Shown here piece by piece: positions 19,188 to 31,719 of a stretch of 64,000 nt of DNA. The stretch's first letter is position 1. Every line of letters starts with the position of its first letter. The notes under the pieces are model-generated. The model had not been told where the DNA came from. It made no database searches and saw only the letters and a list, made by a program, of their open reading frames with translations. The position numbers and the translations under genes are program-made. This DNA is from Gemmatimonadaceae bacterium (GTDB lineage: Bacteria > Gemmatimonadota > Gemmatimonadetes > Gemmatimonadales > Gemmatimonadaceae), in assembly GCA_011525845.1 (NCBI GenBank), contig WYBP01000001.1, forward strand, positions 1 to 64,000, given 5' to 3'.

Positions 19188-19607
19188 TCAGCCACCGTGC
19201 TGCGCGGCCATGAACGCGATCCCGGGAGCGATCGCCCGGTGCCAGGCATCCTCGAGTGCGGGGCCCCACTCGGGGTCGAACTCGCGCACGGTCCGCAACA
19301 GGCTCTCCTCGAAGTGCGCGTACTGGGCGGGGGCGACGTCGAGGTCCTGCTTGTTGTGGCGCGCCGCGATCCGCTCCAGGAGCACCGGGTTGCGGCGCTT
19401 GGCGAAGGTGAAGAGCAGGCCCAGCCCGTGCTGGAGCAGCTTGTTCTGCCGGTCGAAGTCGGTGTGGGCGAACTTCGCCCGCGTCGCCGCGTCCGACTGG
19501 AGCAGCCGCTTGTAGAACGCCTGGAAGAACTGCTCGCTCGCGCAGCGGCGGAGGCTCTCCTCCGCGAGCTGGATCGTTTCGGCGGACAGGACATCGGGCG
19601 AGGCCAC
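19188..19607 (-). CDS. Single-domain globin (flavohaemoglobin/sensor-globin type)
   Basis: Protein of 139 residues from the GTG at 19607, which has AGGAG eight bases upstream; an in-frame GTG at 19613 is only two bases from that site. Globin marks: Tyr32 in FYKRLL (B10), Phe46 in KFAHTD (CD1), Gln54 near E7, and His84 in AARHN (proximal F8), followed by the PAQYAHFEESLL pattern of this globin class. No reductase or signalling domain is attached. The family binds O2 or NO and can act as sensor or scavenger. Zero spacing to the kinase and then to a haem protein suggests a gas or redox input to that operon, which is inference. A 77-residue ORF and a hairpin lie just upstream. Confidence 0.87.
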   Translation of the reverse strand: MASPDVLSAETIQLAEESLRRCASEQFFQAFYKRLLQSDAATRAKFAHTDFDRQNKLLQHGLGLLFTFAKRRNPVLLERIAARHNKQDLDVAPAQYAHFEESLLRTVREFDPEWGPALEDAWHRAIAPGIAFMAAQHGG

Positions 19608-19632
19608 TCGCACTACTCCTTCACGGGAGGAC

Positions 19633-19938: not shown

Positions 19939-20616
19939 TCAGTTGCCGCTGATGCCCAGCGCGCGCTGTACGCGTCGGCCCAGCAGGTGCTTGGCATAGT
20001 AGCCCGTGAGGCGACCCTCCGCGAGCACCGAGGCGCGGTCGATCAGCGCCGCGAGCTCCGCCGACGGGACCAGGTCCATCACGAGGTGCACGCGGTCCAC
20101 CGCCCCCTCGTTCGCGACCTCGTGCGGGAATCGCACATCCACCAGCCAGGTCTCACCCGCCGCGAGCGGCACCCGGTGGTCGTCCACCGTGAATCGGACA
20201 TCAGGATTCGTCACCACCGGCACGTGCAGCCGCACCAGGTCCTTCGCGATCGTGTGCAGCGGGTCCGAGTGCCGGAGGATGCGGCCCCCCGAACGCAGGC
20301 GCATGAGGCGCACCCGGTTCCGCTCCGCCGGGAACCGGTCGAGCACCTCCTGGAAGTACGGACAGAAGCTCAGCGCGGGCGTCGCCGCGAACGCGCCGCC
20401 CCTGCTGGTCTGCTCCCGCAGGTCGCCGCGCGGTGCCCAGAGGGCCACGGATTCCCACGCGCCATCGTGGTACGGACCCGCGTGCACGCTCCACCAGCTC
20501 TCATGCACGCGCGCCAGGTCGGCGGCGAGGCGCGCCGGGTCGAACGTCAGCTCCAGCCGGCGCGCGATCGGGTGACGCCGCAGGCCGTTCCGCAGCGCCT
20601 CACGCAGCAGGGACAT
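19939..20616 (-). CDS. Aspartyl/asparaginyl beta-hydroxylase-like 2OG-Fe(II) oxygenase
   Basis: Protein of 225 residues. The ATG at 20616 is preceded by GGGAGGG; upstream in-frame sequence is Arg/Pro-rich and not protein-like. The Asp_Arg_Hydrox pattern is present: RHSDPLH (iron-binding His with nearby Asp), LHVPVVTNPDVRFTVD, a glycine turn AAGETWLVDVRFPHEVANEG with the distal His, then DRVHLVMDLV with the Arg that binds 2-oxoglutarate. Family members hydroxylate Asp/Asn in proteins or peptides, or small molecules in biosynthetic clusters; the substrate here is unknown. The start overlaps the SDR gene by 17 bases, so it is translationally linked. It lies about 5 kb from the RiPP-like operon at 25-31.7 kb but on the other strand. 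Confidence 0.82.
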   Translation of the reverse strand: MSLLREALRNGLRRHPIARRLELTFDPARLAADLARVHESWWSVHAGPYHDGAWESVALWAPRGDLREQTSRGGAFAATPALSFCPYFQEVLDRFPAERNRVRLMRLRSGGRILRHSDPLHTIAKDLVRLHVPVVTNPDVRFTVDDHRVPLAAGETWLVDVRFPHEVANEGAVDRVHLVMDLVPSAELAALIDRASVLAEGRLTGYYAKHLLGRRVQRALGISGN

Positions 20617-21628
20617 GCTGCCCTCCCGCTCGCGCGCCGTGCGCCGGCGCGGACGCGGCACCGGCGATCCAGCGAAGGTCGGAGCGTGCGAACTCAGCGA
20701 GGCCCTCGCGCAGGGAGCGCGGCGGAGCGAAGTCCAGACCACCACGCCGCACCGACGTGAAGCGTGAGTCGCTGCAGTACCGCAGGACCTGAGCGGCCGA
20801 TCGAGCCGTGGCTCCCACGACCTCCGTCGCGCGCGTCCCTCGCAGGAGAGCGGCGATCACCGCGACCGCGCGGCTCCGCCGTGGGAACCCCGTCGGCAAC
20901 CCGAGCGCCTCCCGGATCGTGGTCGCCACCTCTCCCAGCGTGAGATCGGGCCCGTCGGCATAGTTGAAGACGTGCACGCCCGGGCCGAGCGCAGCCGCGT
21001 GCGCGTGGAAGGCCGCGACGTTCTCCACATGGGCGAAGGACTTCCGGTTGTCCCCGCTCCCGATCATCACGAACCCCGGGGCGGCCAGCTCGTGGAAGAG
21101 GCCGAGCATCCGACCCCGCACACCGGGGCCGAACACGATCGTCGGCCGGATGATGACGAGACTGCGCGTCGCATCCTCTCGAGCCCACCCCTCGAGGATG
21201 CGCTCCGCCTCCAGCTTGGTGCGCCCGTACGGCGAGCGCGGACGGCAGGGGGAGTCCTCGGTCCGCACGCCCCGATGCTGTCCGTAGACTGCGACCGTGC
21301 TGGTGAAGACGATCCGGCGGAGGCCCGCGCGCCGCGCGGCGCTCGCGACGGCGCGTGCGCCGCCGACGTTCGTCTCCTCGAACCGCTCCACCGGACGGGG
21401 TTCCGTCCCATGCTCCGCGGCGAGGAGGAAGAGCGTCTCCGCCCCCGCGAGCGCGCGCGCCACCGACGCCTCATCGCGCACGTCGGCGTGCTGCCACGCG
21501 TGCGGCGCCACGGTGCACGGCTGGCGGTCCGCGATCCGCACCGGCAGCCCTGCCGCGAGCAGGGCGCGCGCCAGCGCGCTGCCGATGAATCCCGATCCCC
21601 CCAGCAGGACGCGCGGTCGGTCGCTCAC
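20600..21628 (-). CDS. NAD-dependent epimerase/dehydratase (extended SDR)
   Basis: Protein of 342 residues with the extended short-chain dehydrogenase fold. Nucleotide-binding GGSGFIGS lies near residue 10, acidic IADRQ ends strand 2, DVRDEASVARAL sits at strand 3, Ser in FTSTVAVYG and YGRTK supply the Ser-Tyr-Lys catalytic set, and RPTIVFGPG follows. Such enzymes act on nucleotide sugars or on sterol-like 3-beta-hydroxy compounds. With a sterol-desaturase-like partner upstream, a lipid substrate is possible but unproven. The ATG overlaps the upstream stop as ATGA (21625-21628), and the end overlaps the oxygenase start by 17 bases, so this is the middle gene of a tight operon. Confidence 0.88.
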   Translation of the reverse strand: MSDRPRVLLGGSGFIGSALARALLAAGLPVRIADRQPCTVAPHAWQHADVRDEASVARALAGAETLFLLAAEHGTEPRPVERFEETNVGGARAVASAARRAGLRRIVFTSTVAVYGQHRGVRTEDSPCRPRSPYGRTKLEAERILEGWAREDATRSLVIIRPTIVFGPGVRGRMLGLFHELAAPGFVMIGSGDNRKSFAHVENVAAFHAHAAALGPGVHVFNYADGPDLTLGEVATTIREALGLPTGFPRRSRAVAVIAALLRGTRATEVVGATARSAAQVLRYCSDSRFTSVRRGGLDFAPPRSLREGLAEFARSDLRWIAGAASAPAHGARAGGQHVPAA

Positions 21629-22488
21629 TCCCGCTCCGTCGCGGCGCGCACGTTCGCGCCCGCGCTCTCGATGACCGCATCGCGACGGAACGGGGAGACG
21701 AGGTGCGACAGCCAGCGCTCACGCACGCGCCATCCCTCCACACCCGTCCGCTCGGGCCGCCGCTCGGCGTCCACGGCGGTGCCGAAGAGGAAGTCCCAGA
21801 ACGAGAAGAGGCCGCCGAAGTTCGTGTCCCGCACCGCGGGGTCGGTCGAATGGTGGGTCGCGTGGAACACCGGCGAGACGAGGATCTTCCGCGCCCAGCC
21901 GAAGCGCCACGGCAGGTTGGCGTGGTGGGTCGCGTCGATGAAGGCGAGCAGGAAGGAGTAGGGGAGCCACGAGACGGCCGGCGTCCCCAGCAGCAGGAGC
22001 GGGATGAAGGTCACCGTGTGCGCGAAGGCCTGGTCGATCGGGTGGTTCCGGTAGCCCGTCGCGAAGGTCAGCTGCTCCTGGCTGTGGTGCACGCGATGGA
22101 AGCGCCACCAGATGCGGGAGTGCTGCGCCCGGTGGATCCAGTAGCTGAGGAAGTCGAAGATCAGCAGGTAGGCGGGGATCCCGATCCAGAGCGGCGCGCT
22201 GCTGAGCAGCTCGACCCGCATCCAGGGGAACGCCTCGCGCGTGGCCACCGAGAGCGGCGTGTAGAGCATCACGATGTACACCACGAACACGAGGCGGTAG
22301 AGCACATCGGTGAGGAAGCGCCGGGAGGCGTACTGCTCCAGGCTCACGCCCGCGCGGCGCTCGAAGACCATCAGGATCGCCATGCACGCCGCGCCGATGC
22401 CGATCGCGTAGCGCAGTCCGCTCCCGAGCTCCGTGATCGGAAGCCAGGTCGCGAGCCACTCGAGCAGGGCGCGATTCAGGTCGTCCAT
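21625..22488 (-). CDS. Sterol desaturase/fatty acid hydroxylase family membrane oxygenase
   Basis: Protein of 287 residues. Several membrane helices (about 27-45, 62-80, 98-115, 150-170) carry the three histidine clusters of the family: HRAQH and HRVHH (about 118-135), and HATHH (about 210), with HATHHSTDP near the end. These bind a di-iron centre used to hydroxylate or desaturate lipids. First gene of the operon with SDR, 2OG oxygenase and a small ORF; divergent from the formyltransferase at 22604. TATGTT on the minus strand (22547-22542) is 53 bases upstream and is a likely -10. Family assignment is firm; the substrate is not known. Confidence 0.92.
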   Translation of the reverse strand: MDDLNRALLEWLATWLPITELGSGLRYAIGIGAACMAILMVFERRAGVSLEQYASRRFLTDVLYRLVFVVYIVMLYTPLSVATREAFPWMRVELLSSAPLWIGIPAYLLIFDFLSYWIHRAQHSRIWWRFHRVHHSQEQLTFATGYRNHPIDQAFAHTVTFIPLLLLGTPAVSWLPYSFLLAFIDATHHANLPWRFGWARKILVSPVFHATHHSTDPAVRDTNFGGLFSFWDFLFGTAVDAERRPERTGVEGWRVRERWLSHLVSPFRRDAVIESAGANVRAATERE

Positions 22489-22603: not shown

Positions 22604-23533
22604 TTGAGGGTCGTGCTCTTCGCCTCCGGCGGTGCGATCCCCGCAGAGGCCGTGCGTGCCCTGCGCGGCACGTGCGATCTCGTGGGGGTCGTGCGGCCGC
22701 GCGCATCGGTTGACGCGCGCGGCCCCGCCTGGCTCGCGCGCCGGGTGTGGCATGGCGCGCGAGCCCTCGCGCGACGCTCGAAGCAGGCAGGACCCGAGAC
22801 GCGGGATCCGCTCGACTCCGTCATCGCGGAGTCGGCGCTCCCGGTCTGGCCGATGCGCGGGCCGAACGATCCGGCGCTCGAGGCACGACTCCGCGCCGCC
22901 GCCGTCGACGTCGCCTGCATCGCGACCTTCCCCTGGCGACTCGGCGCCTCGCTCCTCGGCGCCGCACGCGCCGGCACGCTCAACGTCCACACCTCGCTCC
23001 TCCCGCGGCACCGGGGTCCGACGCCGCTCTTCTGGACCTACCACGCCGACGATCGCGAGGCCGGCGTCACCATCCATCGCGCCGACTCCAGGATGGACGC
23101 GGGTCCGATCGTCGCGCAGGCACGCCTCCCCCTTCCGCGAGGCCATCCGGTGCGCACCCTCCACGCCGAGCTCGCGGAGGTGGGCGCGTCGCTCCTGCGT
23201 GACGCGGTGGTCTCGATGGCGGGTGGGACGGCGACGCTGCAGGCGCAGGACGAGCGCCTCGCGACGCAGGCGCCGCGCGTGCAGTCCGGTGAGCGGATGC
23301 TGGGTGAGGACTGGGGTGCCGAGCGGACCTGGCACTTCCTCGCGGGCCTCGCCGGGATGTACCGCGAGCCACTGTGGTGCGACGGGCGCGAGGTGCGGTA
23401 CCGCGAAGTGCCCGGCTACACGGGCGGTTCCCCGCTCGCCGTGCCAGGCGTCGTGACGCGTGCGACCACGGGACCCGGGTGGACGCTCTGGTGCCGGGAC
23501 GGCGGCGTGACGCTCCTGCCGGACGACGCGTGA
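22604..23533 (+). CDS. Formyltransferase-family protein
   Basis: Protein of 309 residues. The formyl-transferase N domain (about 1-190) begins RVVLFASGG and contains LNVHTSLLPRHRGPTP, the family signature with catalytic Asn and His, then HRADSRMDAGPI with the catalytic Asp. The C-terminal third (WHFLAGLAGMYREP and a short beta region) resembles the C-terminal part of Met-tRNA formyltransferase-like enzymes but is shorter. Relatives transfer formyl from 10-formyltetrahydrofolate to Met-tRNA, UDP-amino-sugars or amines. Context does not suggest translation genes, so a small-molecule, sugar or peptide amine is more likely. The start is the TTG at 22604, chosen because it precedes strand 1 exactly; no clear ribosome site. 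Its stop overlaps the next GTG. Confidence 0.83.
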   Translation: MRVVLFASGGAIPAEAVRALRGTCDLVGVVRPRASVDARGPAWLARRVWHGARALARRSKQAGPETRDPLDSVIAESALPVWPMRGPNDPALEARLRAAAVDVACIATFPWRLGASLLGAARAGTLNVHTSLLPRHRGPTPLFWTYHADDREAGVTIHRADSRMDAGPIVAQARLPLPRGHPVRTLHAELAEVGASLLRDAVVSMAGGTATLQAQDERLATQAPRVQSGERMLGEDWGAERTWHFLAGLAGMYREPLWCDGREVRYREVPGYTGGSPLAVPGVVTRATTGPGWTLWCRDGGVTLLPDDA

Positions 23534-24180
23534 TCGGCGAGCTCGTCGCGCTCACCGGATGGATCGTCCTCGTGGCGACCGGCGCGTGGATCGCACTCCG
23601 CGAGCGCGGCACGTCGGGCACGGGCGGCCCCTCCGCGGCCGTGCGCCGTTTCATCGCGGTGGCGCTCGCGATGTCGCTGCTGGCCGGGTTCTCGCAGCGC
23701 GAGCTCTGGCCGTTCGCGACCTGGGCGCTGATGCCCGCCCGCTCACCCGCCGACGTCCGGATCCGCGCGCTGGTCTGCGTCGACTCCGCCGACCGTCCGT
23801 TCGCGGTGGACCACCGCGCCTGGGCGCCGCTCACGGAGGAGGAGCTGCTCTCCTGGACCCGCGGGCCCTTCACGCGCCTGGAAGCGGCCGCGCAGCGGAC
23901 GGCCATCGTCTCGCTCACGGAACGCGTGGAGGCGGGCCGGGTGCGCGCACGCGGCGGGCTCTCCCCCGCGGCACACGCCTCCCCACTCGGGCGCTTCGCC
24001 GCCTCGTCGCACCTGCTTCACCCGCTGCGGTGGACCACGCCAGAGCGCACACCCGCCACGCCCTGCGTCGCCCTGCGCCTCGTGGAGCGACGGTGGAACG
24101 TGGACTCCGCAGCCGCCGGGCGTGGCGTGGTGATCGAGTCGACGCTCTGGCAGCTCCCGCCGCATGAGGAGGAACCGTGA
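23530..24180 (+). CDS. Membrane-anchored protein of unknown function
   Basis: The GTG at 23530 overlaps the formyltransferase TGA as GTGA, giving 216 residues. Two N-terminal hydrophobic helices (about 2-22 and 36-58, around LVALTGWIVLVATGAWI and RRFIAVALAMSLLAGF) are followed by a soluble region with RIRALVCVDSADRPFAVDHRAW and a charged, Arg-rich remainder. No motif I recognise. The end overlaps the HTTM gene start (GTGA at 24177-24180). The same pairing, a small membrane protein beside an HTTM protein, suggests the two form one complex; inference only. Confidence 0.7.
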   Translation: MIGELVALTGWIVLVATGAWIALRERGTSGTGGPSAAVRRFIAVALAMSLLAGFSQRELWPFATWALMPARSPADVRIRALVCVDSADRPFAVDHRAWAPLTEEELLSWTRGPFTRLEAAAQRTAIVSLTERVEAGRVRARGGLSPAAHASPLGRFAASSHLLHPLRWTTPERTPATPCVALRLVERRWNVDSAAAGRGVVIESTLWQLPPHEEEP

Positions 24181-25073
24181 CCGGATCCCTGCGGGCTCGC
24201 TGGGAGGCGTACTGGTTCGAGCCGGGGCACGCCCTCCAACTCGCCGTCGTTCGCGTGCTCGCCGCCGGGACTGCGCTCTGGGTGCTCGTCTCGCGGGACC
24301 GCGCCGGCGTGAGCGGACTCGGGAGCGAGTTCTGGTCCGGCGTCTCGGCCATCACGCGCTGGCGCTTCCTCCTCTTCCCCGGGCACGAGACGCTCGAGCG
24401 CGCGCTCACCCTGCTGGCGGCGGTCCTCCTGGTCGCCACGCTCCTCGGCATCCGGCCCCGTGTCACCGCGCTCGCCTCGGCGCTCCTGCTCTACCACCTC
24501 GCGCCGCTCGAGAGCATCGTCTGGACGCCGGCACCGTACGGACGCGGACTCACGCTCCCCACACTCGCCCTCCTCCTCTGCGGGATCGCGCCGAGCGCCG
24601 ACGCGCTCGCGCCGGGCGCGCGGACGACCGCGCCTTCGTGGCGATATGGTTGGCCCGTGCGACTGCTGCAGGTGTGGCTTGTGAGCGTGTACTTCTTCTC
24701 CGGCGTCGCGAAGTTGCGTGCGTCCGGACTCGCCTGGGCGAGCGGCGAGAACCTCACGCACTGGCTCCGGCTGGCCACGCAGAACGAGCTCGTCAACGTG
24801 CATGTCGCCGTGGGGGGGTGGATCGCCGACCAGCCGCTCGCCGCCTCCGGCGCGGGGGCCCTGACGCTCGCCTTCGAGTTCGGGTGCGTCGTCGCGCTCT
24901 TCTCGCGCCGGGCACGCCCCTGGTTCGCGCTGGTTGCCATCGGGTTCCACGTCGGCATCTATCTCGCGATGAACATCACCTTCAACTCCTGGCCGCTCCT
25001 CCTGGCCTTCGTCGACTGGCCCGCGGCGCGTGACCGCTGGCGGGGCTGGCGGGGGGGCGCCGTGCTTGCTTGA
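24177..25073 (+). CDS. HTTM-domain membrane protein (vitamin-K carboxylase-like)
   Basis: Protein of 298 residues with about seven membrane helices. The layout matches HTTM (horizontally transferred transmembrane) proteins: an N-terminal RARWEAYWFEP, a first helix starting LAVVRVLAAGTALWV, a mid-region LLYHLAPLESIVWTPAPYG, then RLLQVWLVSVYFFSGVAKL, which is highly typical of the family, and FHVGIYLAMNITFNSWPLLLAF near the end. Eukaryotic relatives carboxylate glutamate in peptides using vitamin K; most bacterial ones are uncharacterised. It ends at 25073, and the -35 of the RiPP-like operon promoter overlaps its stop codon, so the two transcription units abut. Confidence 0.87.
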   Translation: MTGSLRARWEAYWFEPGHALQLAVVRVLAAGTALWVLVSRDRAGVSGLGSEFWSGVSAITRWRFLLFPGHETLERALTLLAAVLLVATLLGIRPRVTALASALLLYHLAPLESIVWTPAPYGRGLTLPTLALLLCGIAPSADALAPGARTTAPSWRYGWPVRLLQVWLVSVYFFSGVAKLRASGLAWASGENLTHWLRLATQNELVNVHVAVGGWIADQPLAASGAGALTLAFEFGCVVALFSRRARPWFALVAIGFHVGIYLAMNITFNSWPLLLAFVDWPAARDRWRGWRGGAVLA

Positions 25074-25137: not shown

Positions 25138-25410
25138 GTGTCAGCCGTCTATCGCCGGGCCTCGACCGTGGAGGCCGCGCCGATGCAGAGCGAGACGATC
25201 CTCTTCAACCCCGCCACGAAGGGGTTCTGCGTGCTGAACGCCTCCGCCGCGCTCGTGTGGAACAGCCTCGAGTCGCCGCAGTCGGCGTCCGCGCTCGCCG
25301 ACCAGCTGGTCCGGGCCTTCTCCGGCGTCTCGCTGGAGCAGGCGCAGAGCGATGTGCAGTCCGTGCTCGACGAGTTCCGTTCGCTGTCCCTCGTAGAGTT
25401 GCAGTCCTGA
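25138..25410 (+). CDS. PqqD-family peptide-binding protein (RRE-like)
   Basis: Protein of 90 residues. The GTG at 25138 is chosen because GGAGG lies five bases upstream; an earlier in-frame start at 25030 would lie inside the HTTM gene. The PqqD winged-helix pattern is clear: ETILFNPATKGFCVLNASAALVWNSLE, then SASALADQLVRAF and a helix VQSVLDEFRSLSLVEL. PqqD proteins and the related RiPP recognition elements hold the leader of a ribosomal precursor peptide for tailoring enzymes. A short peptide ORF (25460) and an HPr-kinase-like gene (25692) follow, the same company as in 'HPr-rel-A' systems and in paeninodin-type lasso clusters. First gene of a long plus-strand operon. Confidence 0.87.
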   Translation: MSAVYRRASTVEAAPMQSETILFNPATKGFCVLNASAALVWNSLESPQSASALADQLVRAFSGVSLEQAQSDVQSVLDEFRSLSLVELQS

Positions 25411-25459: not shown

Positions 25460-25585
25460 ATGAACGAGAACGAGAAGGACGAGCGCCCCGCCTACGTGCC
25501 GCCGAAGGTCACCGTGATGAACGAGGCCGAGGTGCTGAAGTCGTTCCAGATCACGAGCGCGGCCAGCACCTGGTGGGGGATGTAG
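25460..25585 (+). CDS. Candidate RiPP precursor peptide, 41 aa, C-terminal STWWGM
   Basis: ATG at 25460 with GGAG nine bases upstream; stop TAG at 25583-25585; 49 bases after the PqqD-like stop. The first ten residues are highly charged (MNENEKDERP). Then comes AYVPPKVTVMNEAEVLKSFQ, which looks like a leader: YVPP fits the YxxP leader motif known to be bound by RRE proteins in lasso peptide systems. The end, ITSAASTWWGM, has no charge and carries Ser, Thr and two Trp, suitable as a core. No Cys, so not a thioether or lanthionine peptide. A strong hairpin follows at once. That it is translated is likely; that it is modified is inferred from its neighbours. I recognise no described peptide family. 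Confidence 0.72.
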   Translation: MNENEKDERPAYVPPKVTVMNEAEVLKSFQITSAASTWWGM

Positions 25586-25691: not shown

Positions 25692-26696
25692 ATGAGTGCC
25701 CTTCGCTGGTACCGGCTGGGCGAGGGAACGCTCGGCGTCGCGAGTGCCGACGCGGCGCTGGCCTCGCGGTTCGAGGAGATCTACGGCGGGTGTGCCGTTG
25801 GCGAGCCCGGCGAAGGGCCGGTCGTGGTCTGTCGCGTGGGTCCGGCCGCGGGCGGCGAGGTGTGCGCCACGTTCGAGGATCCCGAGCCGCTGGATGTTCG
25901 AAGTTTCGTCGGGACGCTCTTCCCGGACCGTGGGTACGTACCGGTCGACGGGAGCGGTGATGCGAGCGGCCTCGCGAGCGGCGACGCGAACGGGATACAC
26001 CTGCCAGGCTCGGATGCATCCGCTCGCATCGACGGGAACGACGTCGTCGCGCCGGCCGACGCGCCCTGGCAGCCCCTGGTGGCGAACCTCGCGGTGAATC
26101 GCCTGCTGCGGCTCCAGCGCGACGTGCTCTTCCTGCACGCGGCATCGGTCCGGATCGGCGGGAAGGGCGTCCTCGCCTGCGGCCCGAAGCGGAGCGGGAA
26201 GACGACCCTCGCACTCGCCCTCGCGGCGCGGGGCCACGGACTCCTCGGCGACGAACTCGCGGGCGTGCACCTCCGCTCGCGGGAGCTGATCCCCATCCGT
26301 CGCTCGGTCGCCACGCGGGAGGGTCCACGCTCGGCCGCGGCCGATGCGCTGCTGGCCGCACACGGCGGGGTGCCCGAGCGATTCCCCGACGGCGAACTCC
26401 GGCGTCGCTATCCGGCGCAGTCGCTGGGCCCCGATGCATCGGCGACTCGCACGCCTTTGACGGCCCTTCTGATCCTCCGTAGTATGGTCCCGGCGACGCG
26501 GATCGAGGCCGCACAGGTGGGACCCGCACTGCTCGGCAAGATGACGCCGCTCGCAGCCTCACTCTGGGAACGGCCGCCGGCACTCGTCGCGGTGCGGCTG
26601 GTCGGGCTCCTCTCCTCGGTCCGCGTGTTCGAAGTCGACTCGGGACCGCCCGACGAGGTCGCGGACCGCATCGAGGCTCTCATGGAGGGTGGATGA
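25692..26696 (+). CDS. HPr kinase-related protein (HprK-rel-A type)
   Basis: Protein of 334 residues from the ATG at 25692; an earlier in-frame GTG at 25644 lies inside the hairpin and is rejected. The HprK-like core has FLHAASV (His149, like the catalytic His of HPr kinase), Walker A GPKRSGKTTL (164-173), and LGDELA (186-191) where HPr kinase has its acidic pair. The N-terminal 130 residues are divergent and contain a repetitive Asp/Ser/Gly stretch (about 88-115). Related proteins phosphorylate a serine, and in paeninodin-type clusters a homologue modifies the lasso peptide. Here the peptide STWW core or a carrier is a possible target. The stop overlaps the next ATG (ATGA). Confidence 0.85.
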   Translation: MSALRWYRLGEGTLGVASADAALASRFEEIYGGCAVGEPGEGPVVVCRVGPAAGGEVCATFEDPEPLDVRSFVGTLFPDRGYVPVDGSGDASGLASGDANGIHLPGSDASARIDGNDVVAPADAPWQPLVANLAVNRLLRLQRDVLFLHAASVRIGGKGVLACGPKRSGKTTLALALAARGHGLLGDELAGVHLRSRELIPIRRSVATREGPRSAAADALLAAHGGVPERFPDGELRRRYPAQSLGPDASATRTPLTALLILRSMVPATRIEAAQVGPALLGKMTPLAASLWERPPALVAVRLVGLLSSVRVFEVDSGPPDEVADRIEALMEGG

Positions 26697-27253
26697 CGCT
26701 GAACGTACGGGAGCGCGCCGACACGATCGGCACGCTGCGACACATCTCCGTCTTCGCGATGGAGACACTCGCCCGCTGGGTGCCGACCACGCCGGAGCTC
26801 GAGGCGAAGATCGTGCTCGGGCGCCACATCTGGGAGTTCGCGCAGCACGCCGACGGCCTTGGCCGCCGCACCCACGAGCTGCGCGCGGCGATGCACTACT
26901 CCCCTGCGCCGACCGATCCGTACGTGGCGATCCTCGAGGAGTGGCGCGCGCTCACCGCGACCGCCGACCGGATCGGCACGCTCTACGACGCGATCATCCC
27001 CGACCTCGACGCGCGCTACGCGGCCTACCTCGCCGCCACCGACGTCTTCCTCGACGAACCCAGCGTCCGCATCGTGGAGCGGAACCGCGCCGACCTCCCG
27101 CGCATGATCGAGGAGTCGCGCGCTCTCCGGAAGGAGCGCCCCGAGCTGGCGGCGAGCCCCGCCGCGGCGGCGATGGCGCGCCGACTCGCCGCCTGCACGG
27201 AGTACGTCTCCTTCCGCGCGCCGGTCGGCAGCACGGCGGAGCGGCTCGCATGA
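26693..27253 (+). CDS. Divergent ferritin-like four-helix protein
   Basis: Protein of 186 residues, almost all helical. Candidate metal residues lie on the helices: Glu24 (AMETLARW), His45, Glu48 and His52 (RHIWEFAQHADGLG), His61, and Glu129 (RIVERN). The pattern recalls the ferritin-like fold but lacks the second Glu-x2-His of the two downstream paralogues, so it may be an inactive or differently loaded partner. It starts in ATGA with the kinase stop and ends in ATGA with the next ferritin-like gene. I recognise no named family. Its position suggests a subunit of a three-part di-iron complex. Confidence 0.7.
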   Translation: MTLNVRERADTIGTLRHISVFAMETLARWVPTTPELEAKIVLGRHIWEFAQHADGLGRRTHELRAAMHYSPAPTDPYVAILEEWRALTATADRIGTLYDAIIPDLDARYAAYLAATDVFLDEPSVRIVERNRADLPRMIEESRALRKERPELAASPAAAAMARRLAACTEYVSFRAPVGSTAERLA

Positions 27254-28065
27254 TCGCCACCGCCGCTCCCACGAGCACGAAGGTGGTCCGCGGCGTCACG
27301 CTCCACGGGGAGCCCGCGCGCGAGGCGATCTTCAACGTCGTCTCGACCGACGCGGAGATGGCGGAATGGCCCGGCATGTCCGACGAGTCGCGGCGCGAGC
27401 GGCTCCACCGCCACATGAACAACGAGTGCGTGGCGATGGAGATCGCCTCGCAGGCCGTGGCCGACTTCCCCGACGCGCCCTGGGACCTGCGCATGTCGAT
27501 CGCGCGCCAGGCGGCGGACGAGTCGCGCCACGTCGAGATCCTCTACCGGCGCCTCCTGGAGCTCGGCGGCCGGAAGGGGGAGTTCCCGGTCTCCAATTAC
27601 GAGTGGAGCGTGACGGGGATGATCGACAACCTCCCCGGGCGACTCGCGATCGAGAACCGGACCTTCGAGGCGGGACTCATCGACATCCTCGGCCAGCTCA
27701 AGACCACCTGGCGCGAGGCGGGGGACGACCGCACCGCGGACGCGCTCGAGGCGATCCTCGCGGACGAGATCACCCACGTGCGATTCGCCAACCGCTGGAT
27801 CAAGCTGCTCACCGAGCGCGACCCGCGCGTGCTGCTCCGCGTCGCGCAGGCCATCCGCTACCTGCGCGCGGTGAACGCAGCGCTCGCCCCGGAGGTCGGG
27901 TCCGTCAACGCGGTCGGCGTGACGCTCACGGAGGAGAAGGTGCAGCCCCCCGCGGTGAACGTGAGTGGTCGGCTCGAGGCCGGATTCACCGAGGAGGAGG
28001 TGCTGGAGGTGCTCCGGCAGGCGGGGTTCCGCTCCATCATCCCCGAGCAGCTGCGCACCACATGA
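27250..28065 (+). CDS. DUF455-like ferritin-fold di-iron protein (first)
   Basis: Protein of 271 residues with a complete set of di-iron ligands in four helices: Glu59 (NNECVAMEIA), Glu91-x2-His94 (DESRHVE), Glu140 (NRTFEAGLI) and Glu173-x2-His176 (DEITHVRFANRW). This is the 4-Glu/2-His pattern of ferritin-like oxidases. Residues 75-85 (DAPWDLRMSIARQ) are shared almost exactly with the next gene. The last 70 residues, with VNVSGRLEAGFTEEEVLEVLRQAG, lie beyond the bundle and could bind a partner. DUF455-type proteins include tRNA- and small-molecule-modifying oxygenases, but most are unknown. Placed between two ferritin-like genes and linked by ATGA at both ends. A role in peptide oxidation is inference. 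Confidence 0.85.
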   Translation: MIATAAPTSTKVVRGVTLHGEPAREAIFNVVSTDAEMAEWPGMSDESRRERLHRHMNNECVAMEIASQAVADFPDAPWDLRMSIARQAADESRHVEILYRRLLELGGRKGEFPVSNYEWSVTGMIDNLPGRLAIENRTFEAGLIDILGQLKTTWREAGDDRTADALEAILADEITHVRFANRWIKLLTERDPRVLLRVAQAIRYLRAVNAALAPEVGSVNAVGVTLTEEKVQPPAVNVSGRLEAGFTEEEVLEVLRQAGFRSIIPEQLRTT

Positions 28066-28829
28066 GCGCCCCGCTCCATCCGCGCCTCGACCCCGCCTGC
28101 TTCGGTGAGCCGGCGGCGCGCGACGAGCGATTCACGGTGGTCGACATCTGGCACGACTGCGTCAACCTGCCCGACGGGCATCCCGAGAAGGCGCAGGAGT
28201 TCTTCCATCGGCAGATGAACGAGGAGGCGGCGGTGCTCGAGAACGCCGCGCGCAGCCTCTGGGAGTTCCCCGATGCCGACTGGGACCTCCGCATGTGGCT
28301 GGCCCGCCAGTGCGCGGATGAGGCCCGGCACACGGAGAACTACCGCCGCCTCTTCGTGAGCCGTGGCGGGCGGCTCGGCCAGTATCCGGTGCTCGGGTTC
28401 CAGTACCGGATCCTGGGGAAGGTGCACACCCTCATCGGACGGCTCGCGGTGCAGAACCGCACGTTCGAGGCGGACGGGCTCGACGCGGTGACGCACGCGA
28501 TCACCGAGGCACGCGAGGCGGGTGACGACGAGTTGGCCGCCGTCTACGACGCCCAGCAGGCGGACGAGATCGTGCACATCCGCTTCGCGAACGAGTGGAT
28601 CAAGCGCGAGGCGGCGCGCAACCCGCGTGCGCTGATCGCGATGGGGCAGGCGCTGGCGCTCGCCGCGCGCGGGTTCCAGCAGACCTTCGACCGGGAAGGG
28701 TCGCGCGTCTCGAAGTACGGCGTCGCCGAGGACCTGCGGACGCAGGCCGGGTTCAGCCCGGAGGAGATCCAGGACTTCGTCGTCATCACCGAGCACCGGC
28801 GGGCGATCGCGCGGCAGGACGCGGGATGA
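28062..28829 (+). CDS. DUF455-like ferritin-fold di-iron protein (second)
   Basis: Protein of 255 residues, paralogue of the preceding gene. Ligands: Glu54 or Glu55 (QMNEEAAVLE), Glu87-x2-His90 (DEARHTEN), Glu136 (NRTFEADGLD) and Glu169-x2-His172 (DEIVHIRFANEW). Shared blocks with its neighbour are DADWDLRMWLARQ and RLAVQNRTFEA. It begins with its own region containing IWHDCVNLPDGHPEKAQEF and ends in a short tail of two helices. Two intact copies in tandem suggest a heteromeric oxygenase or two successive oxidations. Start and stop both overlap neighbours as ATGA. No electron-transfer partner (ferredoxin or reductase) is present in the operon. Confidence 0.85.
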   Translation: MSAPLHPRLDPACFGEPAARDERFTVVDIWHDCVNLPDGHPEKAQEFFHRQMNEEAAVLENAARSLWEFPDADWDLRMWLARQCADEARHTENYRRLFVSRGGRLGQYPVLGFQYRILGKVHTLIGRLAVQNRTFEADGLDAVTHAITEAREAGDDELAAVYDAQQADEIVHIRFANEWIKREAARNPRALIAMGQALALAARGFQQTFDREGSRVSKYGVAEDLRTQAGFSPEEIQDFVVITEHRRAIARQDAG

Positions 28830-29866
28830 GCGAGGCCGTGCTCGCGCGCGGCTGGATCCAGTCCCCGGCCTTCGACCTGGCGGCCTTCATCCTCGTGCCG
28901 CTCTCGAGCCTCATCGTGCTCGGTGCGGTGCTCGAAGTGCCGTACGGCATGCACCTCGTGGTCGGCGCGACCTACCTCGTCGCGATCCCCCACTACCTCT
29001 CCTCGCTGACCTTCTTCCTCGGCGACGACAACCTCTCGTACTATCGCTCGCGGCGCACCGCGTTCTTTGTCGGACCGGTCGTGATCGTCGCGCTCGTGGC
29101 GATCCTCCGTTTGGTCGGCCTCACCGACATCGTGCTGAACACGATGTTCCTCTGGAACATCTGGCACGTCTCGCTCCAGAGCGCGGGCATCCTCTCCATC
29201 TACCGGCGGCTCAACGGCGGACCGCAGGAGGAACGCCCGCTCGCCCACCGCACCATCTTCCTGCTGAACGCGACGCTCGCGCTCTGGTTCGTGGATCGCT
29301 ACCCGCCACTGCACGGCTGGCTGGTGGCCATCCACGAGGGCGTGCCGATGGCGCTGCGGTACACGCTGCTCGTGCTCGGCGCGACGACCGCGCTGCGCTA
29401 TGCGCGGCTCGTCGCCCGCCGCGACCGGCCGATGCCCTTCCCCGAGAAGGCGTTCCTGGTCTCGAGTCTCGTCCTCTTCACGCCCTACCTCTGGGTGCGG
29501 GACTCGAACCTCGCGACCTTCGGGATGCTGATGGGCCACTTCATCCAGTACCTCTCGATCGTCTGGCTGCTCCACCGCCGGAAGTACGCGCGCGCGGAAG
29601 GGTCGGCACGCCAGCGCACGCTGGGGATGATCAGTGCGCGGCCGGCGCTCCTCTTCGCGACCATCGCGGGCTCGGGGCTCGCGTTCTACGCCGCGAGCGA
29701 GCTCTCCGCGCTCTTCGGCGTGGCGATGGCGTACGTGATCCTCTGGAACTCGATCACGCTGGTGCACTTCTACCTCGACGGGCTCATCTGGGCGTTCAAG
29801 CAGCCATTCGTGCGGCAATCGATCGGCGCCTACCTGACACCCGCCGCCCGCGTCGCCATCCGATGA
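28826..29866 (+). CDS. Polytopic membrane protein with conserved-looking intramembrane His residues
   Basis: Protein of 346 residues from the ATG at 28826 (ATGA overlap). About eight to nine hydrophobic helices. Histidines sit in helices or at their ends: AIPHYLSSLTF, WNIWHVSLQSAG, MGHFIQYLSIVWLLH and LVHFYLDGLIW. Such spacing recalls membrane metal oxygenases, for example the Brp/Blh carotenoid-cleaving type, but I cannot assign a family. In this operon it may be an oxidase, an exporter or a membrane platform for the ferritin-like proteins. It has none of the Walker or ABC motifs expected of a peptide-exporting ATPase. The stop overlaps the S26 ATG. Confidence 0.72.
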   Translation: MSEAVLARGWIQSPAFDLAAFILVPLSSLIVLGAVLEVPYGMHLVVGATYLVAIPHYLSSLTFFLGDDNLSYYRSRRTAFFVGPVVIVALVAILRLVGLTDIVLNTMFLWNIWHVSLQSAGILSIYRRLNGGPQEERPLAHRTIFLLNATLALWFVDRYPPLHGWLVAIHEGVPMALRYTLLVLGATTALRYARLVARRDRPMPFPEKAFLVSSLVLFTPYLWVRDSNLATFGMLMGHFIQYLSIVWLLHRRKYARAEGSARQRTLGMISARPALLFATIAGSGLAFYAASELSALFGVAMAYVILWNSITLVHFYLDGLIWAFKQPFVRQSIGAYLTPAARVAIR

Positions 29867-30441
29867 CGGGCGAGGACCGGCCGCCCTCCGCGACACTGGT
29901 CGGCTGGGTGAGCGAGCGCCTGCGCGGGTCCGGCAGACTGGTCGAGTGCGAGGTGCGGGGTGCGAGCATGGGAAGCGGCCTGCCGGACGGATCGATGGTC
30001 CGCGTGCGTTGCGACGGCGCTCATGATGCTCCGCTGGGTACGGTGGTCGCGCTCGACCTTGGCGGGGCGCTCACCATCCATCGGCTCGTGCACCACGGAC
30101 GCTCCCGGCGCGCGCTCGGATGGGTGGTGACCGAGGGGGACGCGAACCTCACCTGCGATGCGCCCGTGCCGGCCGAGGCACTCCTGGGGCGTGTGGACGC
30201 CGTGCGCGCCGAGCGTGGAGACTGGATCCCGGTGGACGTCGCGGTGCCGGCGCCAGCCACACGCCCACGGATCACGGCGCTCGTCCGGCGGGTCGTCTGC
30301 CGTGCGACCGAGTTCCATCCACGTGCCGCACGTGCGATCAAGGGTGCCGTCGTGCTCGCGATGACGCCGCTCGTCTGGCTGCGCCCCTACCCGGAAAGCG
30401 CAGTGCGCCACGCCTCGGTCGCGCATCGCCCGCGGAGCTGA
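29863..30441 (+). CDS. S24/S26-family signal-peptidase-like protein
   Basis: Protein of 192 residues. Family signature VRGASMGSGLPDGSMV gives nucleophile Ser35. The second catalytic position is in LTIHRLVHH (His73), so this looks like the Ser-His type (SipW/ER type), not the Ser-Lys bacterial type. TEGDAN (90-95) matches the GDxN box. No clear N-terminal membrane helix; a weakly hydrophobic stretch near 163-175 (AVVLAMTPLVWLR) could anchor it. In 'HPr-rel-A' type loci and some RiPP clusters an S26-like protein accompanies PqqD, and leader removal is the likely role here, by inference. It is followed after three bases by the nucleotidyltransferase. Confidence 0.8.
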   Translation: MTGEDRPPSATLVGWVSERLRGSGRLVECEVRGASMGSGLPDGSMVRVRCDGAHDAPLGTVVALDLGGALTIHRLVHHGRSRRALGWVVTEGDANLTCDAPVPAEALLGRVDAVRAERGDWIPVDVAVPAPATRPRITALVRRVVCRATEFHPRAARAIKGAVVLAMTPLVWLRPYPESAVRHASVAHRPRS

Positions 30442-30444
30442 GGC

Positions 30445-31719
30445 GTGCGGACCGCCCCGGATGCAGAGACCCGCGCGAGGCGGGCGGAGGTCCTCGCCCT
30501 GCTCGGTGCGACGGGCCCGTTCCCGCTTCCGGCCGGAGCGTCGGCGGACGCGTGGGATGCGCGCCTGGAGACGCTCGGCGCGCCGCTGCACCCCTGGCTG
30601 GCGCATCGACTCGCCGCGCTCGGCATGGAGCAGGACCTCCCGGCGGGGACCCGCGCTCGCCTGCAGGCGTCGCTGCAGGCGAGCGCGGTGGCGGAGCTCC
30701 GCCGTCGGTCGGCGCTGATCGAGATCGTCGAGGCGTTCGGCGCCGGGGGGATCCCATTCGTGCTCCTCAAGGGGATGGCACTCGCACACACGCACTACCC
30801 CGCGCCGCAACTGCGCACGATGTCGGACATCGACATCTGGCTCCAGCCCGAACGCTGCGCGGACGCCGTCGCCCTGCTCGGACGATCGGGTTGGCGGATC
30901 CCCGGGCGCTACGCCACGCACGTGCGCGCGCCGGCGGACGCGCTCCTGCTGGAACGTCCCGATGCGCCATTCGTGCTCGAGGTGCACACCTGGCCTCCAT
31001 CGCTCGGGCGCGACTCCACGGCGAGCGAGCGCATCTGGGCTCGCTGCGACCACGCGACCATCGCCGGTCGACAGGTGCGCGTCTGCTCCACGCGCGACCT
31101 CGTCGCGCACCTGTGCCTCCACCTCACCAGGAAGCACGGATGCAGCGACGGGCTGCGGGGATTGGTCGACCTGGCCTGCGTCGCGCGCCACATCCCCGAC
31201 GACCCGACGTGGCGGGCCCTCGGCGCATGGCACCGCGACGATGGCGTGGCGCTCTGGACATCCTTCGCGCTCGCGATGGCCCGGGACCTCGTCGGCGCCC
31301 CGGTCCCGGCGTCCTACTTCGCCGCGGCGGGTGCGCCCCCCGTCCCCGAGACGCTCCGGTCGCTCGCGCTCGAGCAGCTCTGGGACCACGAACCGACGAC
31401 CATGCGCGGCGTGGAGGGGATGCTCGCCGGCGAGCTCGGGGGCCCGCTGCACGCGCTGCGCAACTACGTCCGGGACTTCTACGCGGCACCCGGCGCCGAT
31501 GGCCGGCGTTGGTGGCGCGCCCTCCCGTCGCGGCTGCGCTTCGACCTGACCGTCCGGATCCCGCGCTACTGGCGCGCGCTGCGGCGCGGCGAGCTGCGCC
31601 GCACACGCCTGTCGCGGCGCGCCACGATGATCCAGGACCGGCACGCGCTCATCGATGGGCTCAAGGCCCTCGCGCCCACGCTCAGCGAGGGACCACCCGC
31701 TCCCAGTGCTCCCAGATGA
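30445..31719 (+). CDS. Nucleotidyltransferase-family protein (NTP_transf_5-like)
   Basis: Protein of 424 residues; GTG at 30445, three bases after the S26 stop. Core pattern of the family: PFVLLKGMALAHTHYPAPQLRTMSDIDI, with LLKG at 107-110 and the metal-binding Asp128 and Asp130 (MSDID), then EVHTW (acidic third residue) around residue 175 and HLCLHLTRKHG further on. The C-terminal half is helical. Homologues are regular members of clusters with PqqD and HPr-kinase-like genes, including kinase-containing lasso peptide clusters. They would transfer a nucleotide or nucleotide-derived group; the acceptor is unknown. Its last 38 bases overlap the 3' end of the convergent DUF2779 gene. Confidence 0.83.
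   Translation: MRTAPDAETRARRAEVLALLGATGPFPLPAGASADAWDARLETLGAPLHPWLAHRLAALGMEQDLPAGTRARLQASLQASAVAELRRRSALIEIVEAFGAGGIPFVLLKGMALAHTHYPAPQLRTMSDIDIWLQPERCADAVALLGRSGWRIPGRYATHVRAPADALLLERPDAPFVLEVHTWPPSLGRDSTASERIWARCDHATIAGRQVRVCSTRDLVAHLCLHLTRKHGCSDGLRGLVDLACVARHIPDDPTWRALGAWHRDDGVALWTSFALAMARDLVGAPVPASYFAAAGAPPVPETLRSLALEQLWDHEPTTMRGVEGMLAGELGGPLHALRNYVRDFYAAPGADGRRWWRALPSRLRFDLTVRIPRYWRALRRGELRRTRLSRRATMIQDRHALIDGLKALAPTLSEGPPAPSAPR

Follow-up and report, generated by a model that had tools for sequence, protein, structure and literature searches.

Two-subunit di-iron oxygenases, such as the toluene 4-monooxygenase hydroxylase and the phenylacetyl-CoA epoxidase PaaA/PaaC, pair a four-helix subunit that binds metal with another that is metal-free. 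Aldehyde-deformylating oxygenase, VlmB, and MiaE are single-gene enzymes with an E/ExxH/E/ExxH ligand scheme and act on aldehydes, azoxy precursors, and tRNA, respectively. Here, we analyzed a stretch of 64,000 nucleotides from a Gemmatimonadaceae bacterium (contig WYBP01000001.1, positions 1 to 64,000; the window), in which three tandem genes (fer1, fer2, and fer3) follow the genes for a PqqD-like protein, a short peptide, and an HprK-like kinase. The closest described peptide pathway is that of the linear polyphosphorylated peptides (LPPs), ribosomally synthesized and posttranslationally modified peptides (RiPPs) described in 2026, whose clusters encode a discrete leader-binding protein, an HprK-like kinase, an archaeal-type signal peptidase, a nucleoside triphosphate (NTP) transferase, and a transporter (PMC13381572). 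The LPP precursor carries the motif YxxPxVLxHQxIxFETxxS, the kinase phosphorylates core Ser3, and the signal peptidase cuts after F-E-T; the words "oxygenase" and "oxidase" are absent from the main text of that paper (PMC13381572). We favor the reading, with a probability of about 0.6, that the trio belongs to a RiPP pathway, for which it encodes a heteromeric ferritin-like oxidase. The three chains would form a complex, and the neighboring peptide would be its substrate and be modified by oxidation.

fer2 and fer3 encode paralogs with putative di-iron ligands

The three genes occupy positions 26693 to 28829, exactly as a preliminary description of this DNA had placed them. ATGA overlaps join them to each other, to the kinase gene upstream, and to the membrane-protein gene downstream. 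The nonsynonymous rate (dN) was below the synonymous rate (dS) in every pair, with fer1 compared with five other genomes and fer2 and fer3 with four; dS was saturated in genome G170. Because they are conserved at the protein level with dN < dS in other genomes, the trio genes encode real proteins rather than chance frames.

Both fer2 (106.6 bits) and fer3 (68.5 bits) scored above the curated cutoff of DUF455 (PF04305; 34.3 bits). They are 40% identical over 238 columns and share blocks such as NRTFEA, as noticed earlier, which are also visible as a DNA repeat (27615 to 27673 and 28415 to 28473). The preliminary description had assigned both proteins Glu, Glu-x2-His, Glu, and Glu-x2-His on four helices, and this pattern held throughout the comparison: E59, E91, H94, E140, E173, and H176 (fer2 numbering) were invariant in 11/11 cluster copies and in all 24 rows of a wider set of relatives. 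In the fold model of fer2 (predicted local distance difference test [pLDDT], 79; predicted template modeling score [pTM], 0.79), the four predicted helices (45 to 72, 78 to 104, 128 to 156, and 160 to 190) carry one ligand set each, in the order E, ExxH, E, ExxH; the ligands of fer3 were assigned by alignment. fer2 and fer3 are ferritin-like proteins with a full putative di-iron ligand set, which is predicted to bind metal.

The top structural alignments of the fer2 model were to aldehyde-deformylating oxygenase (Z 16.3; root mean square deviation [rmsd], 3.5; 193 aligned) and VlmB azoxy synthase (Z 16.1; rmsd, 3.4; 204 aligned), with MiaE-type tRNA hydroxylase (Z 15.2; rmsd, 3.1; 171 aligned) and R2-like ligand-binding oxidase (Z 14.5; rmsd, 3.2; 197 aligned) further down. 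This search does not cover every family, and the absence of a family from it is uninformative. Sequence searches of the PDB gave weak matches only. The trio could also consist of ordinary ferritin-like proteins for iron storage or peroxide detoxification, standing beside the peptide genes by chance; in favor of this, the Ferritin score of fer2 was slightly over the Pfam cutoff (28.1 versus 24.5 bits). However, the DUF455 scores are much stronger, the fer2 model aligns better to oxygenases than to bacterioferritins, and each of the six genomes described below that carries the trio also carries the peptide, so that this explanation is very improbable.

In a tree of 26 proteins, built without eight fused rows and without the five rows L058 to L062 from proteobacteria, fer2 formed one clade (98/95) and fer3 another (98/96), and the two together were split from the outside DUF455 proteins (100/100). 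This topology fits a duplication within this lineage, with both copies apparently kept since.

fer1 is best read as a separate partner subunit

fer1 showed no Pfam or NCBIfam match over the cutoff and no DUF455 match. It had been described as a degenerate ferritin-like gene lacking the second Glu-x2-His. The second site is indeed missing, but this wording understated the difference, because there is no Glu-x2-His anywhere in the protein. The nearest form is one Glu-x3-His, and individual orthologs among the six have Gln or Glu where fer1 has its helix-2 His residues. A degenerate third ferritin copy was rejected: in profile-profile comparisons, the probability of a relationship was 0.3% to 3.4% against the DUF455 sets (0.3% against fer2 and fer3), versus 99% each against the partner proteins of Myxococcota and Gammaproteobacteria and against the N-terminal halves of fused Gemmatimonadota proteins. 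fer1 instead belongs to a separate family whose members stand beside DUF455-like proteins or are fused to them.

The single-chain model of fer1 (pLDDT, 89; pTM, 0.85) was, like that of fer2, a four-helix bundle (helices 5 to 32, 36 to 64, 90 to 115, and 122 to 148). Its first structural row was chain B of toluene 4-monooxygenase (Z 17.0; rmsd, 2.7; 174 aligned), tied with a Dps-like protein (Z 16.6; rmsd, 2.7; 140 aligned). Chain B is the metal-free subunit of that enzyme; searching the PDB by sequence gave no match of fer1 to this type of hydroxylase.

We also surveyed 29 DUF455 loci of other phyla, several of them on short contigs. A fer1 relative adjoins the DUF455 gene in 15 of these outside loci (Myxococcota and Gammaproteobacteria). 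Ten loci (L022 to L031; e.g., L023:9549-10931) hold Gemmatimonadota fusions, typically of about 430 to 490 amino acids (aa), with a fer1-like N-terminal domain and a DUF455-like C-terminal domain. The C-terminal halves are related to DUF455 (97%, profile-profile) and keep the ExxH motifs, and no peptide-cluster genes adjoin the fusions. The main reason for calling fer1 a partner subunit is that the same two families go together in three layouts: gene pair, fusion, and trio. From sequence and model, fer1 is best read as a separate four-helix family and a metal-free partner subunit. In several Myxococcota loci (L034:6979-7734, L036:6988-7734, and L042:7044-7718), a probable TetR-type regulator, named from sequence reading, stands directly before the DUF455-partner pair.

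The usual unit elsewhere is one DUF455 protein with one partner, as a gene pair (15/29 loci) or a single polypeptide, and fer2 and fer3 are distinct clades with full ligands each. The trio could then amount to two alpha-beta oxygenases in place of one three-chain complex, with fer1 pairing first with fer2 and then with fer3 for successive steps on the peptide. We consider this arrangement rather unlikely; all six clusters keep one fer1 and two DUF455 genes, in a single order where the contig allows, a pattern that fits an obligate trio and the two pairings equally well. The earlier suggestion of two active chains and one supporting chain is upheld as to the two full ligand sets and the supporting chain in a RiPP cluster, while their union in one complex stays a proposal.

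The trio co-occurs with the peptide genes

We searched 395 genomes of the phylum and compared the clusters by tblastn across six genomes, which represent five genera and two families; G376 and G195 belong to the window's own family. The peptide model matched in 6/395 genomes. PF04305 was over its cutoff in six genomes, always in two copies, and matched under the cutoff in eight more; we therefore rejected the idea that DUF455 is generally present in the phylum. The fer1 profile matched in 24 genomes, scoring at least 289 bits in six of them and about 79 bits or less in the remaining 18, with most of these low-scoring matches lying in long frames that resemble the fused proteins. The peptide, the stand-alone fer1, and the DUF455 pair were found in the same six genomes each time (G000, G376, G195, G156, G170, and G205). 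None of the 395 genomes had an over-cutoff DUF455 pair without the peptide, and the 12 other genomes of the window's genus that were searched had no match.

The gene order PqqD-peptide-HprK-fer1-fer2-fer3 is identical in the window, G376, G156, and G170, and the clusters of G195 and G205, each split over two contigs, are consistent with it. All six clusters contained these six genes together with the PF04116 membrane hydroxylase gene and the signal-peptidase-like gene.

Proposed peptide pathway and competing explanations

The peptide gene is preceded by a GGAG-type ribosome site, and all of its third codon positions are G or C (GC3, 1.0). T32-S33-A34 and W38-W39 are among the residues invariant in the five aligned peptides and are kept in the sixth. 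The six peptides have Y-x2-P-x-[V/L], F-Q-[I/V]-T-S-A, and W-W in common. The matches of the kinase to HprK_rel_A (E = 1.6e-10) and to Hpr_kinase_C (E = 1.6e-4) stayed under the cutoffs, and its GKTT P-loop is kept in 6/6 clusters. The signal-peptidase-like protein scored 23.4 bits against Peptidase_S24 (cutoff, 23.3) and 19.8 against TIGR02228, under its cutoff of 51.85.

In the pathway that we propose, the PqqD-like protein would bind the 41-residue peptide at its YxxPx[V/L] leader, and the HprK-like kinase would phosphorylate one Ser/Thr of the TSA...S/T stretch. The trio would activate O2 and oxidize the short C-terminal core, and the signal-peptidase-like protein would cut near FQ[I/V]T-SA and remove the leader. 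Within the trio, fer2 and fer3 would be the two catalytic paralogs and would each carry a carboxylate-bridged di-iron site, and fer1 would serve as a metal-free four-helix scaffold or activator of both, like the beta-type subunits of other multisubunit di-iron oxygenases. As the target we favor the Trp-Trp close to the end of all six peptides, since these residues are invariant and oxidizable. Genome context gives good grounds for proposing that the peptide is oxidized; the order of steps, the peptide as substrate, and Trp-Trp as the site are inferred. More tentatively, RiPP-modifying enzymes may include a new class, represented by this three-chain oxidase, whose target would be the Trp-Trp end of a linear, phosphorylated peptide, for example through indole hydroxylation or cross-linking. 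DUF455 and its partner would then have a first function; none was found for DUF455 in the literature searched, and no Pfam family matches the partner.

It is doubtful that the trio oxidizes a small molecule, an acyl chain, or a sugar of the same cluster in place of the peptide, although the membrane fatty-acid-hydroxylase gene occurs in 6/6 clusters and the formyltransferase gene in 5/6, HTTM and epimerase genes occur in some, and the fer2 model resembles aldehyde-deformylating oxygenase. The direct neighbors of the trio (PqqD, peptide, HprK, and signal-peptidase-like genes) handle peptides, and the DUF455 pair was never found over the cutoff without the peptide.

Several observations weigh against a peptide-oxidizing trio. 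The hydroxylase, formyltransferase, and HTTM genes could point to a substrate that is a lipid or a sugar. Among the 16 window proteins scanned, which cover 19.2 to 31.7 kb, none matched a reductase or ferredoxin family; with no electron-transfer family among them, electrons would have to be supplied by a general ferredoxin, unless the reaction needs none. Foldseek returned no match at E ≤ 0.001 for the fer1 or fer2 model, and the structural matches are generic for helical bundles. The chance of two sets of six coinciding in 395 independent genomes, about 2e-13, overstates the case because the six genomes are related and do not represent six fully independent events. In the 29 outside loci there were no PqqD, peptide, or HprK matches, so DUF455 and its partner also live without peptide genes. 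Since 15 of these loci hold the pair, the oxidase module also occurs outside the peptide pathway and may act on something else. Two loci, L039 (only 3,977 bases) and L050, have two DUF455 genes and a partner with no peptide genes visible, and an absolute claim that the trio is unique to the peptide pathway was rejected on these grounds. The preliminary description had asked whether the trio occurs widely away from PqqD and peptide genes. Within the phylum, the same 6/395 genomes hold all of them, whereas outside it the DUF455-partner pair stands apart from them in 15/29 loci, two loci having a second DUF455 gene, so that this objection applies in part.

If the peptide-oxidizing reading is true, ferritin-like di-iron enzymes would become a new tool of peptide chemistry and a new marker for RiPP clusters outside Bacillota. 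What the locus suggests is an enzyme team of a new kind, which would modify a small peptide chemically. The short, strongly conserved peptide adjoining the trio offers a direct way to test what the DUF455 oxidase family does.

Neighboring genes

The features of the cluster are listed in Table 1.

Table 1. Features of the peptide cluster and adjoining genes in the window
Feature	Position	Strand	Length	Remarks
Small globin-family protein	19188-19613	-		At cluster edge
Aspartyl/asparaginyl beta-hydroxylase family (PF05118)	19939-20745	-		Among six clusters, only window and G376; true start probably further in
NAD-dependent epimerase/dehydratase (PF01370)	20600-21628	-		Among six clusters, only window and G376
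Membrane fatty-acid-hydroxylase family protein (PF04116)	21625-22488	-		Homolog in 6/6 clusters
Formyltransferase (PF00551)	22604-23533	+		Matched in 5/6 clusters
Uncharacterized protein	23530-24180	+		Conserved beside HTTM
HTTM-domain membrane protein (PF05090)	24177-25073	+		
PqqD-like discrete leader-binding protein	25138-25410	+	90 aa	Probable GTG start at 25138 by alignment; PF05402, 48.9 bits (cutoff, 23.4)
Precursor peptide	25460-25585	+	41 aa	Leader starts YVPPKV; C terminus FQITSAASTWWGM
HprK-related kinase with P-loop	25644-26696	+		Start may be ATG at 25692
fer1 (gene one)	26693-27253	+	186 aa	Predicted metal-free four-helix partner subunit; separate family
fer2 (gene two)	27250-28065	+	271 aa	DUF455 ferritin-like protein; predicted di-iron ligands E59, E91/H94, E140, E173/H176
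fer3 (gene three)	28062-28829	+	255 aa	DUF455 ferritin-like protein; ligand set as in fer2; sister clade of fer2
Membrane protein	28826-29866	+		No Pfam or NCBIfam match; overlaps end of fer3; ortholog only in G376 among five other clusters
S24/archaeal-type signal-peptidase-like protein	29863-30441	+		Probable leader peptidase; Ser, His, and Asp kept in 6/6
Nucleotidyltransferase (PF14907)	30445-31719	+		146.7 bits

The contig of G205 ends at about the position of the formyltransferase gene that is missing there. The PF04116 hydroxylase and the formyltransferase travel with the peptide, which hints at a further tailoring step of unspecified kind. Where the window has the membrane protein gene, G156 and G195 have a second gene of the PF04116 hydroxylase family. 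The PF14907 nucleotidyltransferase gene is present in 4/6 clusters.

An asparagine synthase gene lies near the cluster in 4/6 genomes, and none was found in the searched stretch of the window, on the window's contig C15, or on the 10-kb contig of G376; it was rejected as a core gene. The window and G376, with no asparagine synthase nearby, are alone in having the PF05118 gene, the epimerase gene, and the membrane protein ortholog.

Comparison with known systems

We compared the cluster with lasso peptides, di-iron enzymes, and LPP clusters. Paeninodin-like lasso peptides share HprK-like and nucleotidyltransferase tailoring genes and a Y/WxxP-type leader with the cluster. However, the cluster has no B2 protease or lasso cyclase, and its peptide core has no acidic residue for a ring. 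No B2-type leader peptidase family matched among the 16 window proteins, and five asparagine synthases from four other clusters passed the asn_synth_AEB cutoff only, far under the lasso cyclase cutoff. With leader and core also unfit, a lasso peptide cluster was rejected.

The fer2 model aligned best to single-chain di-iron oxygenases (aldehyde-deformylating oxygenase, VlmB, and MiaE) and shares their ligand scheme, but these are single-gene enzymes. The two-subunit di-iron oxygenases resemble the trio in joining metal-binding and metal-free four-helix chains, and the first row for the fer1 model is the toluene enzyme chain B. In contrast to them, the trio has two putative catalytic paralogs per partner; there is no detectable sequence relation, and the fold match of fer1 was tied with an unrelated bundle. 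The Myxococcota and Gammaproteobacteria pairs and the Gemmatimonadota fusions represent the same two-family partnership, but with one catalytic chain as a rule and no PqqD, peptide, or HprK matches nearby. Literature searches on DUF455 and on ferritin-like or di-iron enzymes with RiPP, PqqD, or HprK showed no such oxidase, in agreement with the earlier remark that such an arrangement was not known from a described peptide pathway.

Judged by the main text of the LPP paper, the window's cluster shares with the LPP clusters a discrete RiPP recognition element (PqqD-like) and an NTP transferase and has candidates for the HprK-like kinase and the archaeal-type signal peptidase; neither has lasso machinery of its own. 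The PF14907 protein is a candidate counterpart of LppN. Both leaders start with YxxPxV, and F-x-(x)-T precedes the Ser-bearing core. The window's peptide differs in its motif (YxxPx[V/L]xV...FQ[I/V]TSA, without HQ), its longer spacing, and its very short Trp-Trp core. LPP clusters have an MsbA-like transporter, and none was found among the 16 window proteins scanned. Because the LPP precursor motif is missing and this transporter was not seen among the proteins scanned, we call the cluster LPP-like rather than LPP. LPP-like handling of the peptide is proposed because four LPP gene kinds (kinase and protease as candidates), the YxxPxV start, and F-x-x-T before a Ser-bearing tail are all present. 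The ferritin-like trio stands in the window's cluster, whereas none is described for LPP clusters in that text. Altogether, the RiPP cluster is LPP-like and, at the probability of about 0.6 given above, would include a heteromeric ferritin-like oxidase.

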